Below, one piece after another: positions 43,321 through 50,910 of a stretch of 59,190 bases of DNA. Numbering within the stretch: position 1 is the stretch's first letter; each line of letters starts with the position of its first letter. The position numbers and the translations under genes are program-made. Below the pieces are notes generated by a model. The model did not search any database and was not told the origin of the DNA. It was given only the letters and a program-made list of their open reading frames with translations. The DNA comes from Methylacidiphilum sp. Yel. GTDB lineage: Bacteria > Verrucomicrobiota > Verrucomicrobiia > Methylacidiphilales > Methylacidiphilaceae. The stretch covers positions 1 through 59,190 of the forward strand of contig NZ_LXQB01000052.1 in the NCBI RefSeq assembly GCF_004421185.1, written 5' to 3'.

Positions 43321-44130
43321 GTGACATTATTTCAGATTAAAAGTTTGTTGTCTACCTACCATCTTTCTCCTCTCAAAAAACTGAGCCAGAACTTTCTTAT
43401 CGATCAAAACATGGCAAAGTTGATCGTAAGAGAAAGCCTGCATGGCATGCCGTTGCCGCTAGAAGTCTACGAGATAGGTCCGGGACTAGGGGCTTTAACT
43501 GAGTTTTTTTTAAATGAAAATATCTCCTTGAAAGCAATAGAAATAGACAGAGGCTTTTGTAAAGTCCTGCAAGAAAGATTTGGCTCTAATCCAAAATTTG
43601 AGCTTATTCAAGGCAATGCGCTCGATTTTCCTTTTCCCAATGCTAAAAACGATACCATTCTTGTAGGAAACCTTCCCTATAACATTGCATCCCTCTTATT
43701 AGTCAAACTTTCACTTCTTCCTGAGCTATTTCCTAGGATGGTGTTTACCCTGCAGCATGAAGTAGCCTTACGACTGCTAACTAACCCAAAAACAAAGCAA
43801 TATGGAGCCCTCTCCGTTCTCATGCAATCTCTTTTTCATATTAAGCGATTGAGAACGCTGCCTAAAGAATTGTTTTATCCACTACCCAAGGTCTTATCTG
43901 CGGTCGTTTTATTTGAACCCAAGGGAACAGCGGTAAACTTGACAGCCAAGGACAAAACTTCGTTTTATGCCTTTGTCAGGAAAGGTTTTTCTCAACGGAG
44001 AAAAAAACTCAACAAAGTTTTAGGAATTCCTTTGGAGAAAAGAGCCGAGGAAATTCCACCAGAACATTGGATAAAACTATGGAGGGAGTTCAATGATTCC
44101 AGTATAGCTAAAAAAGTGGGGGGTCTGTAA
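43321..44130 (+). CDS. rsmA: 16S rRNA dimethyladenosine transferase RsmA (KsgA)
   Basis: Dimethylates A1518 and A1519 of 16S rRNA in late 30S maturation. 269 residues from a GTG start; the family opener KKLSQNFLIDQNMAKLIV is near residue 18-35. SAM motif EIGPGLGALTEFF, the catalytic NLPYNIAS motif, and FSQRRKKLNKVL near the C-terminus. Divergent from metE. Followed by two very short membrane-protein genes. Confidence 0.94.
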   Translation: MTLFQIKSLLSTYHLSPLKKLSQNFLIDQNMAKLIVRESLHGMPLPLEVYEIGPGLGALTEFFLNENISLKAIEIDRGFCKVLQERFGSNPKFELIQGNALDFPFPNAKNDTILVGNLPYNIASLLLVKLSLLPELFPRMVFTLQHEVALRLLTNPKTKQYGALSVLMQSLFHIKRLRTLPKELFYPLPKVLSAVVLFEPKGTAVNLTAKDKTSFYAFVRKGFSQRRKKLNKVLGIPLEKRAEEIPPEHWIKLWREFNDSSIAKKVGGL

Positions 44131-44210: not shown

Positions 44211-44366
44211 ATGAATAAAGAAGGCAGAGAACCACAAAAAGATCCCCAGAAGAAAAAAAGGTCGGTTGCAGCAGAAAACGTTTATTTTTTTGTTATCATG
44301 TTTTTGATCGGCCTATTATTTGTGTTCTTAATCTTTTCGGTCATCACCAAGAAAAGTTATATGTAA
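44211..44366 (+). CDS. mini membrane protein A (51 aa), tandem pair
   Basis: ATG at 44211, TAA at 44364-44366; a TAGGAAT stretch is a possible ribosome site. Charged N-terminus (about 22 residues, KDPQKKKR), then one TM: YFFVIMFLIGLLFVFLIFSV, and a short C-tail ITKKSYM. The TM region is nearly identical to that of the neighbour at 44409 (YFF-MFLIGLLF-FLIFSVI), while the tails differ, so this is a duplicated coding gene. I know no named family. N-in, single-span topology is predicted by the positive-inside rule. Confidence 0.72.
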   Translation: MNKEGREPQKDPQKKKRSVAAENVYFFVIMFLIGLLFVFLIFSVITKKSYM

Positions 44367-44408
44367 AAAAAGCTTTTTTTTTAACATAAGATGTCATAAC
44401 CTTTCATT

Positions 44409-44558
44409 ATGACATCGAAAAACCCTGAAGATCGAAGAAAAAAGACTATATCGTCTGGGGATATCTATTTCTTTATCGTTATGTTTCTGATAGGACTTTT
44501 ATTTATATTCCTCATTTTTTCTGTGATCAGCAAAAACACCGTTCACGTTCATGGATAA
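44409..44558 (+). CDS. mini membrane protein B (49 aa), tandem pair
   Basis: ATG at 44409, TAA at 44556-44558. N-terminus TSKNPEDRRKKTISSGD, then TM YFFIVMFLIGLLFIFLIFSV and tail ISKNTVHVHG ending in HVHG. Paralogue of the ORF at 44211, 42 bases downstream of its stop. Synonymous differences across the TM (for example different Leu and Ile codons) indicate that both copies are kept as protein. The unlike tails suggest divergent partners. The region to 44782 that follows has no further gene. Confidence 0.72.
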   Translation: MTSKNPEDRRKKTISSGDIYFFIVMFLIGLLFIFLIFSVISKNTVHVHG

Positions 44559-44782: not shown

Positions 44783-46264
44783 ATGGATCTTGCCGCTTCT
44801 GTTGACATTGGATCGCACAGTTTTCATCTATTAGTGGTTCAGGTGGAAAATGAAACAATACGACCTATCGATAAAATTAGGGATCCTGTTGCTTTAGCAG
44901 CCGGCTTAGATGAAAATAGGTTTTTGACTCCAGAAGCTATCACGAGGGCTATTCGCTCTCTGAATAAATTTGGGGAAAGAATAAAAGCTATACCATCGCA
45001 TCGAGTACGAGCTGTTGGCACCAATACCCTGCGTATTGCTAAAAATAGTGAGCAGTTTCTAAAACTTGCCGAAACTGCCTTAGGGCATCAGATTGAAATC
45101 ATCTCAGGACACGAAGAGGCCCGCCTTATCTATCTAGGAGTTGCTCATTCTATGGAAGACGATGGCCAAAAACGATTGGTGGTAGATATTGGGGGAGGAA
45201 GCACAGAACTGATTCTTGGAGAAAGCTTTATTCCACAGCGAGTAGAAAGTCTTTATATAGGTTGCGTGAGCTTTTCAAAAACTTTTTTTCCTGATGGGAT
45301 TGTGTCAGCATCTAGACTGAGGAATGCCGAAATATCAGCCTTGCAAGAATTAGAACCCATAGTGGGATCCTTTAAAAAATATGGATGGCAACGAGTTATT
45401 GGATCTAGTGGAACAATCCTAGCCATTCAACAAGGAGTCATTGCAGAGGGATGGTCTAATAGCGGCATTACCGCCTCTTCTTTGAAAAAATTGAGAAAGT
45501 ATCTTCTGTCTATCGGTCAGATTGATAAGCTTTCGATTAAAGGTATCGATTTGGACAGAAAACAAGTCTTAGCTGGTGGTTTTGCGATTCTTTCAGCTAT
45601 TTTTGAATCATTGGGCATTGAAACCATGGAAGTTTCATCTGGAGCTTTAAGAGAGGGAGTGATTTATGATTTGCTCGGCAGGCTTTGTCAGAAGGATATA
45701 AGAGAAAAAACGGTTCGAGATCTAATCAGCCGTTTTCAAATTGACGAAGCGCAAGCTGAAAGAGTTCGTGCTCTTTCTGTTTCTTTTTATGAAAAAGTGA
45801 AAAAGGATTGGAAAATAGAGGAGGATTTCCATAAGCGAATGATTGTTTGGGCCTCCCTACTTCATGAAATTGGCTTGTTTATATCCTACAGCCAATATCA
45901 TAAGCATGGGCAATATCTTTTGAATCATCTTGACATGCCTGGGTTTTCTCTCAGAGACCAGCAATGCCTCGCTTTTCTTGTCCGTAGCCATAGGAGAAAG
46001 TTCCCACTCTCCGAGCTTCAGTTGTTGAGGCAAGAAGACCGAGAAGCTATGAGAAAACTTGGAGTGCTATTAAGACTTTCAGTTCTTTTGAATAGGGTAA
46101 GGAATAGTCAAGAGTTGCCTGAAATAAAAATTATAGTTAACGCCAACTTAATTTCCCTTACTTTTCCCAAAGAATGGCTCCAAAGCCATCCTTTGACCTC
46201 AGCAGATTTAGCAACCGAATCGCAATATTTGATTAATGCAGGCTTCTTTTTACAATACAGCTAA
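44783..46264 (+). CDS. Ppx/GppA family exopolyphosphatase with HD-type C-terminus
   Basis: 493 residues. ASKHA-fold phosphatase domain: VDIGSHSFHLLVVQV (P-loop 1), VDIGGGSTELIL (phosphate 2) and GSSGTILAIQQG; the C-terminal about 190 residues contain the helical HD-like domain (WASLLHEIGLFISYSQYHKHGQYLL). Family members hydrolyse polyphosphate or (p)ppGpp pentaphosphate. Which one cannot be told. Convergent with zwf (8 bases between stops). Confidence 0.88.
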   Translation: MDLAASVDIGSHSFHLLVVQVENETIRPIDKIRDPVALAAGLDENRFLTPEAITRAIRSLNKFGERIKAIPSHRVRAVGTNTLRIAKNSEQFLKLAETALGHQIEIISGHEEARLIYLGVAHSMEDDGQKRLVVDIGGGSTELILGESFIPQRVESLYIGCVSFSKTFFPDGIVSASRLRNAEISALQELEPIVGSFKKYGWQRVIGSSGTILAIQQGVIAEGWSNSGITASSLKKLRKYLLSIGQIDKLSIKGIDLDRKQVLAGGFAILSAIFESLGIETMEVSSGALREGVIYDLLGRLCQKDIREKTVRDLISRFQIDEAQAERVRALSVSFYEKVKKDWKIEEDFHKRMIVWASLLHEIGLFISYSQYHKHGQYLLNHLDMPGFSLRDQQCLAFLVRSHRRKFPLSELQLLRQEDREAMRKLGVLLRLSVLLNRVRNSQELPEIKIIVNANLISLTFPKEWLQSHPLTSADLATESQYLINAGFFLQYS

Positions 46265-48241: not shown

Positions 48242-49017
48242 AAATAGATGAATTTTTAGCTTTTTGATAGAACAATAATTCCAATTGGAAGCTAAGAAAA
48301 TGATTTTGTATTTTTAAAATCATAACTATTTTGCAAACCGTTTCTCCAATTATAGATAATCATGCTCCTATTAAGAAGATCGGCTAAGGGGAGCTAGCTA
48401 AAATTACTCTTGTTGATTCATCTCATGGAGGGGGGCTTGCTACTTTTTGCTCAAACACCTACCAAACATGCAATTGGACTACAAGTTCTCTTGGATAAGT
48501 CTCCTTCTTTTTTTGCAGCAAGAGAATGCACGCATGCTTTATTTAGCTTTGCTCCTATGGACAAAAGTCAAAGCCAAACCTGCTTGCATTGCCTCAATGG
48601 TAGTTCCAATAAAAGCCTTGGTAGAGAAGAATAAGTATTTTAAGTATAGGAGAGGCTTTCTGTAAAGAAAGCGGCCGTAGTCTTCCATGAGCGGGCATTT
48701 CCCAAAGCAATGGGCAGGTGGTTAGTTCTTTAGGGAATCTACTCAACTCCTACTGGAAAGGAACTGAAAAAAGCTTGCAGGAGCTATCAGTTGAACTTTG
48801 CCCTATATCTAATGGATAAGATTAGCCATCCATGGGAAAACTTATCGGTAAGTTCCTAGAGAAAGAGGGGTGCTTTTTGAAAAATATTCCCGAATTTCCT
48901 TTCCTTTCTTTTGATTCTAATCTTCTTAAAAACGCCGATAGCATTCGGAGAGAATGCAAAGTCTTTTCACTTGGAACGATCGGAAGGAGATACGAAGGAA
49001 AAAGAGAGGATAAGAAT
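48242..49017. other. 776-base stretch without a recognisable gene
   Basis: Upstream of the oxidase gene. It carries only short overlapping frames without motifs (48410-48665). The oxidase frame itself is open from 48832, but the first 62 codons do not resemble the family and lie before a clear ribosome site. Some phrases from 48690 to 48830 could be a decayed gene, but no motif could be matched. A long untranslated leader or a promoter may lie here. Confidence 0.45.
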
Positions 49018-50910
49018 ATGGAGAATCAAGATTTTGAGAGTGCGAAAAAGCAGGGGACAGCGCAGAATGCTAACTCATGGGTTGCTGAGAATCCGCATGA
49101 GACTCATCTCAGAGTACACGAGGTAGAACTACCCTGGTATCGAAAGTACTTATTTTCTACCGATCATAAGGTTATTGGTATCCAATATATGATCACTTCA
49201 CTACTTATCGCCCTTTTTGGCTTTGGCCTGATGATCGTCATGCGTTGGCAGCTTTCCTATCCGGGTAAGCCGATTCCATTGTTAGGCGGAGTTTTGGAAA
49301 ATATTTTGGGTCACGATATGTTTCCCAATGGAGTCATGACTCCTCAGGCCTATAATGCCTTTGGTGCGATCCATGGAACAGTGATGATTTTTATGGCCCT
49401 TGTACCGGCTTTGTTTGCTGGATTTGGAAATTTTGTTGTTCCATTACAACTTGGAGCCCCTGATATGGCTTTCCCAAGGCTGAATATGGCTAGTTTCTGG
49501 TGTTTTTTTGTCGGCGCAGTTATTATCATGGTGAGTTTTTTTGTGCCTGGAGGAGCTGCAAAATCGGGTTGGACTTCCTATCCGCCACTGGCAGATTTGG
49601 CTGATTCTGGCCCTAATTTTCACCCTATTTTGAATGGGCAAACGCTGTGGCTTTTGGGGATGGCTTTTAATATTACTGGCTCTTTGCTTGGGGTAATCAA
49701 CATGATCACGACAATTTTTCAATTGCGTGTTCCTGGTTTAAGCTGGATGCGGCTTCCTTTTTTTGTCTGGGCTGAGCTGGTAACAGCTTTTCTTATGCTT
49801 CTGGCATTTCCTCCTTTGGAAGCTGCTGCCATCATGCAATTGATGGATAGGGTAGCTGGAACCAGTTTTTTTTCTCCTGATGGGCTAATCGTCAATGGAC
49901 AGCAGGCACATTACAGTGGAGGAGGTGCTCCTCTGCTATGGCAACACCTTTTTTGGTTTTTGGGTCATCCAGAAGTTTACGTCCAGATACTTCCTACTAT
50001 GGGAATTGTTGCCGAGATCATTGCTAACAACACGCGAAAACCACTATGGAGCTACAGAATCCTTGTTTATTCAGTTTTGACAATTGGCTTTGTTGGCATG
50101 ATCGTTTGGGCTCATCATATGTACATGACAGGGATGGGGCAAGCCATCAGTACTTTCTTCCAACTTTTTACAACTATTATTTCCATTCCTTCGGTTCTCA
50201 TTGGAACGGTTTTTTTGATGTCTCTTTGGGGTGCTTCGATTCGATTCAATCTTCCTATGATGTTTGCCTTGGCGTGGTTGCCTTTGTTTGGCATTGGTGG
50301 ACTGACTGGTCTTCCTTTAGGATGGTCTACCTCAGATATGGTCTTGCATGATACCTATTATGTCGTTGGCCATTTCCATTATATGATGGCTCCCACCTCT
50401 ATCATGGCTCTCTTTGCCGGTATATATTATTGGTATCCAAAGGCAACAGGAAGAGAAATGAACGAGTTTTTAGGCAAACTCCATTTTTGGCCTACTTTCA
50501 TAACCTTCAATGGAATCTTTCTTCCCATGCTGATGCAGGGTTTCGCTGGAATCCATAGACGCTGGTATGATGGGGGTCAAGGATGGGAAATGGCTCAAGG
50601 TTTGTTATGGCTAAATCATGTTATGTCTGTTTCAGCATGGTTGTTGGCTCTAGCTCAGATTCCTTTTATTCTCAATTTCTTCTGGAGCCTTTTCTATGGA
50701 AAGAAAGTTCAATCTGATAATCCTTGGCAAGCTACCACTCTAGAGTGGGCAACACCTACGCCCCCAGGGCATGGGAATTTTCTCAAGCCCTTGACCGTTT
50801 ATAGAGGTCCCTATGCATATAGCGTACCGGGAAATGAAAAAGACTATTTGCCCCAATGGGAACCTGATACAAAGCCACAGGTACCACAAGCAAAAGTGAC
50901 AAAAATATAA
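49018..50910 (+). CDS. haem-copper (cytochrome c-type) oxidase subunit I, variant lacking K-pathway Lys
   Basis: 630 residues from ATG 49018 (AGAGAGG upstream). Terminal oxidase core with about 12-14 TMs. Haem ligands: H119 (IHGTVMIF), H452 and H454 (GHFHY). CuB ligands H317, H366, H367, and cross-link Tyr321 in GHPEVYVQ. D-pathway Asp149 in GAPDMAF, Asn138 and Asn156, and Glu319 are intact. Position 395, aligned to bovine Lys319 without gaps (28 residues after the second CuB His), is Ile, and bovine Thr316 is Ser392. No subunit II or III gene is adjacent. This is an A-family oxidase with an altered K channel. Confidence 0.9.
   Translation: MENQDFESAKKQGTAQNANSWVAENPHETHLRVHEVELPWYRKYLFSTDHKVIGIQYMITSLLIALFGFGLMIVMRWQLSYPGKPIPLLGGVLENILGHDMFPNGVMTPQAYNAFGAIHGTVMIFMALVPALFAGFGNFVVPLQLGAPDMAFPRLNMASFWCFFVGAVIIMVSFFVPGGAAKSGWTSYPPLADLADSGPNFHPILNGQTLWLLGMAFNITGSLLGVINMITTIFQLRVPGLSWMRLPFFVWAELVTAFLMLLAFPPLEAAAIMQLMDRVAGTSFFSPDGLIVNGQQAHYSGGGAPLLWQHLFWFLGHPEVYVQILPTMGIVAEIIANNTRKPLWSYRILVYSVLTIGFVGMIVWAHHMYMTGMGQAISTFFQLFTTIISIPSVLIGTVFLMSLWGASIRFNLPMMFALAWLPLFGIGGLTGLPLGWSTSDMVLHDTYYVVGHFHYMMAPTSIMALFAGIYYWYPKATGREMNEFLGKLHFWPTFITFNGIFLPMLMQGFAGIHRRWYDGGQGWEMAQGLLWLNHVMSVSAWLLALAQIPFILNFFWSLFYGKKVQSDNPWQATTLEWATPTPPGHGNFLKPLTVYRGPYAYSVPGNEKDYLPQWEPDTKPQVPQAKVTKI

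Follow-up and report, generated by a model that had tools for sequence, protein, structure and literature searches.

CydX, KdpF and AcrZ are small membrane proteins of the E. coli type, which are usually accessory to a large complex, and small single-pass subunits are common in oxidases. Hok, Ibs and ZorO are small hydrophobic single-pass type I toxins, which sometimes occur in tandem and have their start region within an mRNA structure. Usually the type I toxins show a patchy distribution and are often located on mobile DNA. PmoD and AmoD are membrane copper-binding proteins of methanotrophs and ammonia oxidisers, in which a sizeable copper-binding N-terminal part precedes the membrane helix. 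PmoD is reported to have a single C-terminal helix, and four homologues, two of them with signal sequence, were described in Methylacidiphilum (PMC6688271). AmoX, AmoY and AmoZ were described as extra subunits of the archaeal ammonia monooxygenase and are linked to the core genes in some lineages only (PMC10030591). In the crystal structure 4PHZ of the particulate methane monooxygenase (pMMO) of Methylocystis (Rockwell), the protomer contains a single extra unidentified helix (PMC8098663). The verrucomicrobial pMMO is divergent from the proteobacterial enzyme and its pmoB genes are without conserved copper-binding sites (PMC6688271).

ORF1 and ORF2 (Table 1) were examined in the window, i.e. 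the whole analysed stretch of 59,190 nucleotides from Methylacidiphilum sp. Yel. The two resemble CydX, KdpF and AcrZ in size and in the possession of a single helix. In contrast to these proteins, to which no sequence relation was found, the ORFs are tandem paralogues with distinct invariant tails.

Table 1 Coordinates of the ORF pair, its repeats and the genes referred to in the window
Feature	Position	Strand	Description
rsmA	43321..44130		upstream flank; RrnaAD, TIGR00755
ORF1	44211..44366	+	51-aa protein, one membrane helix at about residues 24-45, C-tail TKKSYM
A-run/T-run palindrome aaaaagcttttttttt	44367..44382	+	directly 3' of the ORF1 stop; similar in five genomes
Inverted repeat GATGTCATAA-CCTTTCA-TTATGACATC	44390..44416	+	perfect 10-bp repeat; ORF2 ATG in the 3' arm
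ORF2	44409..44558	+	49-aa protein, one membrane helix at about residues 19-40, C-tail SKNTVHVHG
ppx/gppA	44783..46264		downstream flank
COX1 gene	48832..50910		haem-copper oxidase gene

The gap between the ORFs comprises 42 nt in the window, and the positions and lengths given in an initial annotation of this DNA were reproduced. It had further described a nearly identical membrane segment in both proteins. Indeed, the 22-residue membrane cores VYFFVIMFLIGLLFVFLIFSVI and IYFFIVMFLIGLLFIFLIFSVI are identical at 18 positions, and all four differences are exchanges between V and I. With ORF2 as query, ORF1 was matched in its own genome at E = 2.3e-12; hence, the likeness is not due to chance. ORF1 and ORF2 are true paralogues, co-directional genes for single-pass membrane proteins. 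Both genes are certain, and their function is what we infer below.

Within Methylacidiphilum all five genomes contain both genes, with unchanged order and a gap of 42-43 nt. The C-termini KKSYM (ORF1) and TVHVHG (ORF2), whose difference had already been pointed out, are unchanged in these five. For 9 of the 18 identical core residues different codons are used, from which the initial annotation had concluded selection on the protein. The comparison of substitution rates between the copies, which it proposed, resulted in pN 0.25 and pS 0.99 for the window genome, a divergence near synonymous saturation. Between species the pooled pN/pS was 0.22 for ORF1 and 0.13 for ORF2, and a significant synonymous excess was measured in the single comparison of G000 with G010 (Fisher p ~1e-11). 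Judged by these substitutions, both ORFs are under strong purifying selection, in agreement with the earlier conclusion. Neither missing conservation nor frameshifts in the membrane part, named in the initial annotation as findings that would disprove its claim, were encountered in the main copies of the relatives: these are intact in 12 genomes, five of the genus and seven of the sister genus. Alternatively, the ORFs might be chance reading frames over a conserved DNA or RNA element and no protein genes. They are short, and with the hairpin described below the DNA is structured in part. This explanation is refuted by the substitution pattern, with a strong synonymous bias in both ORFs between species as well as between copies, and the intact main copies in 12 genomes argue against it, too; its probability is negligible.

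One orthologue of ORF2, with 58-73 amino acids and the end TVNIHGH, was identified in 7/7 genomes of the sister genus, which is taken as Methylacidimicrobium. The alignment of ORF2 with these copies contains invariant F, L, S-V and T-V-x-x-H-G. On the basis of this alignment the sister-genus gene is orthologous to ORF2, and ORF2 represents the type common to both genera. In one sister-genus genome a second copy (G007:C82:5614-5785, L108) is decayed; its membrane part is interrupted by a stop and a frameshift. The small protein is present in 12/13 genomes of the family, and its place is fixed within each genus. With a profile of ORF2 and the sister copies no homologue was detected in G012, the family's third genus. 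A profile search in relatives, as recommended by the initial annotation, was positive for 5/5 genomes of the genus and 7/7 of the sister genus, and no credible relative was detected elsewhere among 384 genomes of the class. The single match of E = 9e-6 outside the family (G153, L037) is an unrelated 128-aa protein with charged tail and helix; all remaining matches outside the family had E > 0.002. Among the GTDB contigs there was no credible relative except LP2A itself, which we take to be a Methylacidimicrobium strain, and the search of plasmids and phages yielded no homologue. No family of Pfam, NCBIfam or PHROG fits; the matches were below threshold and of the generic type with charged tail and one membrane helix. 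A profile search of PDB chain sequences resulted in a weak match to a SNARE tail (E 0.056), and the matches to the defence families KwaA and ZorB (PADLOC) were weak and confined to the helix; these candidates were rejected. The earlier statement that no established family has this size and core is thus in line with the curated libraries, where only sub-threshold matches occur. As far as the searched libraries show, the protein family has not been filed before; its kind, small single-pass membrane proteins, is well known.

A candidate third paralogue (G000:C26:9699-9857; L003, L096; ...NQSSPYERMFHR) was rejected as well, as it matched ORF1 and ORF2 with E 0.003-0.05, the level of generic proteins with tail and helix. 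It is a 53-aa single-helix protein ending SSPYERMFHR, which occurs in 5/5 genomes of the genus and is without clear relative. The neighbouring genes code for a predicted secreted protein, resembling Slp lipoproteins by eye, and for a glycosyltransferase-like protein.

In a tree of the small proteins the sister-genus copies formed one fully supported group as against ORF1 and ORF2 of the genus, and ORF1 formed its own fully supported clade. ORF2 retains the tail T-V-x-x-H-G in common with the sister genus. The simplest history would be a single ancestral gene of the ORF2 type, followed by a duplication in the window's genus; ORF1 would have arisen by this duplication, its C-tail changing from TVxxHG to KKSYM. 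As this tree has no root and is built from short proteins, the duplication might also be older and combined with gene conversion in the core.

The hydrophobic 19-mers reached Kyte-Doolittle values of 3.2, 3.2 and 2.0. The N-tail of ORF1 is rich in K/R (7 K/R, 4 D/E) and that of ORF2 is charged, too (5 K/R, 3 D/E), whereas the C-tails contain two and one K/R, respectively. According to the positive-inside rule, this bias suggests an N-in/C-out orientation for both proteins, with a cytoplasmic charged N-tail and a C-tail of 6-10 residues in the periplasm. For ORF1 the orientation is less certain than for ORF2, because KK directly follows the helix. The C-tail SKNTVHVHG of ORF2 includes an HxH motif. 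This histidine pair is kept in both genera with a shifted register (HVHG vs. IHGH), and selection apparently acts on the pair and not on fixed positions. Binding of a metal by the two C-terminal histidines is conjecture.

With PmoD and AmoD the ORFs share the single membrane helix and the occurrence in pMMO-bearing bacteria, and a link to copper is possible. In contrast to these proteins, the N-tail consists of only about 20 charged residues (18-26), which leaves no room for a folded domain. Moreover, the helix is followed by a tail of 6-10 residues, so the structural definition of PmoD does not apply. No relation to PmoD/AmoD was reported by the family libraries searched.

The ORF2 start lies within an inverted repeat (Table 1). 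Perfect 10-bp repeats with the same spacing occur about six times in the 59 kb. As single strand, the hairpin of the window folds at -11.1 kcal/mol (z = -5.5), and z values of -5.3, -3.9 and -3.2 were obtained for G009, G010 and G008. A hairpin at the start codon is kept in 5/5 genomes of the genus despite sequence change; in G008 the favoured stem is shifted and its arm takes in the first two bases of the ATG only. If the arms are slid, the pairing falls from 92% to 10-58%. One stem pair varies between U-A, U.G and A-U, and the second codon of ORF2 varies between Thr, Ala and Ser. This covariation among three lineages is suggestive, but no proof, as it concerns one pair and its score, reached by 75 of 500 shuffles, is not significant alone. 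Among the five genomes searched, the exact repeat pattern was found in two only, with one occurrence each in G000 and G011. A recurring operator or regulon site was rejected, the exact inverted repeat being single-copy in each genome that has one. Comparison with the RNA families of Rfam gave no credible match at the locus.

No Shine-Dalgarno sequence precedes ORF2 in 5/5 genomes, and a Shine-Dalgarno-like AGGA or AGG was found upstream of ORF1 in 4/5. Several other genes of the window, ppx and zwf among them, are also without this sequence. A predicted hairpin over the start and a missing Shine-Dalgarno sequence would be the anatomy of translational coupling: the predicted fold provides the inhibitory structure, and the Shine-Dalgarno scan revealed no strong ribosome-binding site of ORF2's own. 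That coupled pairs can have structure around the start of the downstream gene is established, and with rpmI-rplT a precedent at +52 nt exists (PMC12548453). In tested pairs coupling was little or none above 30 nt (PMC12548453). The spacing of 42-43 nt in the five genomes is beyond the usual range. The hairpin begins 24 nt past the ORF1 stop, and a ribosome terminating at ORF1 would probably not reach it. As an alternative, the hairpin might be an mRNA processing site or the binding site of a local regulator.

A start codon within such a structure would also suit type I toxin-like peptides, whose translation is held off by the mRNA structure, perhaps with an antisense RNA, and which, once released, act on the membrane. 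The ORFs agree with such toxins in size, in the single helix, in the charged tails and in the tandem duplication, and duplicated loci such as zorO/zorP are described for small hydrophobic type I toxins (PMC3919570). Both ORFs encode small hydrophobic single-pass peptides. In contrast to Hok, Ibs and ZorO, they are conserved in the core genome and evidence for an antisense RNA was not found: Rfam gave no antitoxin match, and the -35/-10 matches found there are close to what shuffled sequence leads one to expect. Orthologues are one-to-one and keep their position on the chromosome in 5/5 genomes of the genus and 7/7 of the sister genus; together with pN/pS of 0.13-0.22 and the lack of any copy in the plasmids and phages searched, this is at variance with a patchy, mobile distribution. 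The toxin reading agrees with the anatomy, but is at odds with a fixed distribution in the core genome, and we regard it as quite improbable.

We tentatively favour two co-expressed single-pass N-in/C-out proteins that are accessory to a membrane complex in the energy or copper metabolism of the methanotroph, a reading which is possible and falls short of probable. Both proteins would be made together from one transcript. Hairpin and missing Shine-Dalgarno sequence would hold translation of ORF2 down unless ribosomes arrive from ORF1, which would give the two proteins in a set ratio. With less certainty, ORF1 and ORF2 may pair in parallel, side by side, through their near-identical helices, and the pair might serve as small non-catalytic accessory subunits or as assembly or stability factors of a larger membrane complex. 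The periplasmic tail would then provide the specific contact with this complex.

Such a fixed partner may also be missing. Many small bacterial membrane proteins are of the stand-alone stress or lipid-interacting kind (PMC12719787), and peptides of this kind, with a duplicate kept only for dosage, would agree with the gene neighbourhoods, which differ between the two genera. The invariant and distinct C-termini KKSYM and TVHVHG point to separate specific contacts and not to dosage; the stand-alone reading seems rather unlikely.

For the proposed accessory proteins, the identity of the complex was considered with regard to the gene neighbourhoods. The position between rsmA and ppx/gppA gives no function, as stated before: the sister genus does not retain this context. 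There, ppx follows a methionine sulfoxide reductase-like gene and no similar small ORF is present, and a context conserved outside the genus was rejected. The initial annotation had implied a link to an oxidase, for which the COX1 gene about 4.3 kb downstream in the window is the sole support; its counterpart stays nearby in the genus. On this basis the pair could belong, as small accessory subunits, to a haem-copper oxidase or another respiratory complex in place of the pMMO. Against this, no oxidase small-subunit family of Pfam or NCBIfam was matched above cut-off, and the pair is not located in an oxidase operon in either genus. Furthermore, COX1 is separated from the pair by glucose-6-phosphate dehydrogenase and, on the opposite strand, a lipoprotein-like gene. 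Service to an oxidase is considered unlikely.

Two features, the location close to pmoCAB in the sister genus and the conservation of the C-terminal HxH, would make the pMMO or its copper supply, with due speculation, the candidate to consider first for the accessory proteins we prefer. Among the sister-genus genomes, 5/5 with sufficiently long contigs (G002-G006) have pmoB on the same DNA piece as the small gene. Linkage to pmoCAB, which is to be expected of a pMMO accessory protein, was hence seen in all testable sister-genus genomes and is absent in the window's genus, where no pmo operon lies in the vicinity of the pair. A further expectation, presence in all pmo-bearing relatives, is contradicted by the third genus: G012 has pmoB without a detectable homologue, which means that not every pMMO of this family depends on the protein. 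In the loci read, pmoC and the small gene are separated by a gene for a UbiE-like methyltransferase, which is divergent from pmoC. A conserved candidate promoter was identified about 45 bases ahead of the small gene (L045, L046, L047, L050, L051, L110, L111); in 6/7 genomes it consists of -35 TTGCCG or TTGCGG, a spacer of 17 nt and -10 TATAAT, TATACT or GATATT and ends 6-8 nt before the ATG. The small gene thus appears to have its own promoter, and its mRNA should therefore be leaderless. Because of the intervening divergent methyltransferase gene and this promoter, the small gene is not part of the pmo operon.

Like AmoX, AmoY and AmoZ, the ORFs are lineage-specific and linked to the core genes in some lineages only. 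The archaeal subunits were found by co-migration, whereas the ORFs are known by gene neighbourhood in one of two genera. Presence wherever the enzyme occurs, as for subunits of this type, does not hold for the ORFs, given one pmoB-bearing genus without the protein. With the additional helix of 4PHZ they share that a single helix is concerned; it belongs to another phylum. That the pair represents unrecognised small subunits of the pMMO or factors of copper delivery or assembly, duplicated in Methylacidiphilum and set in their ratio by the hairpin, is distinctly unlikely in this specific form. A family of conserved membrane proteins that is restricted to two methanotroph genera, and near pmoCAB in one, would offer candidate parts of the pMMO system, which could have been overlooked owing to the very small size of the genes. 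Should the connection with the pMMO not hold, there would still be a protein family not described before and, with it, a candidate start-codon hairpin controlling a paralogue pair. A family of two genera with one gene neighbourhood as functional clue is common among small membrane proteins.

The gene next after the small gene in the sister genus codes for a predicted secreted protein. Its orthologues were found in the three genomes of the window's genus searched and not in G012, the same distribution as that of the small protein. Two of these genomes are single contigs, in which the distance to pmoB is about 12 and 21 kb. In the loci read (G000, G008) the orthologues adjoin what appear to be pntA and a gene for an outer-membrane receptor. 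This placement argues for some connection with the genome's methane-oxidation region.

The predicted secreted protein (L045:9033-9599, minus strand; L114:1423-1959, plus strand) has conserved cysteines close to its C-terminus (MRQVxxLRCMxxCRH) and matched no Pfam family in a scan. A second secreted protein, rich in His and Met (HHxxSMELHHMH...), is encoded in the sister genus close to the pmo region (L050:13138-13614 and L045:8545-8955, both plus strand). It has no Pfam family, either, and is possibly a metal-binding protein. For the COX1 gene of the window, the first 60-odd residues are probably non-coding: the relative in G010 starts with MDNQDF..., matching an internal M (MENQDF...) of the window's COX1.
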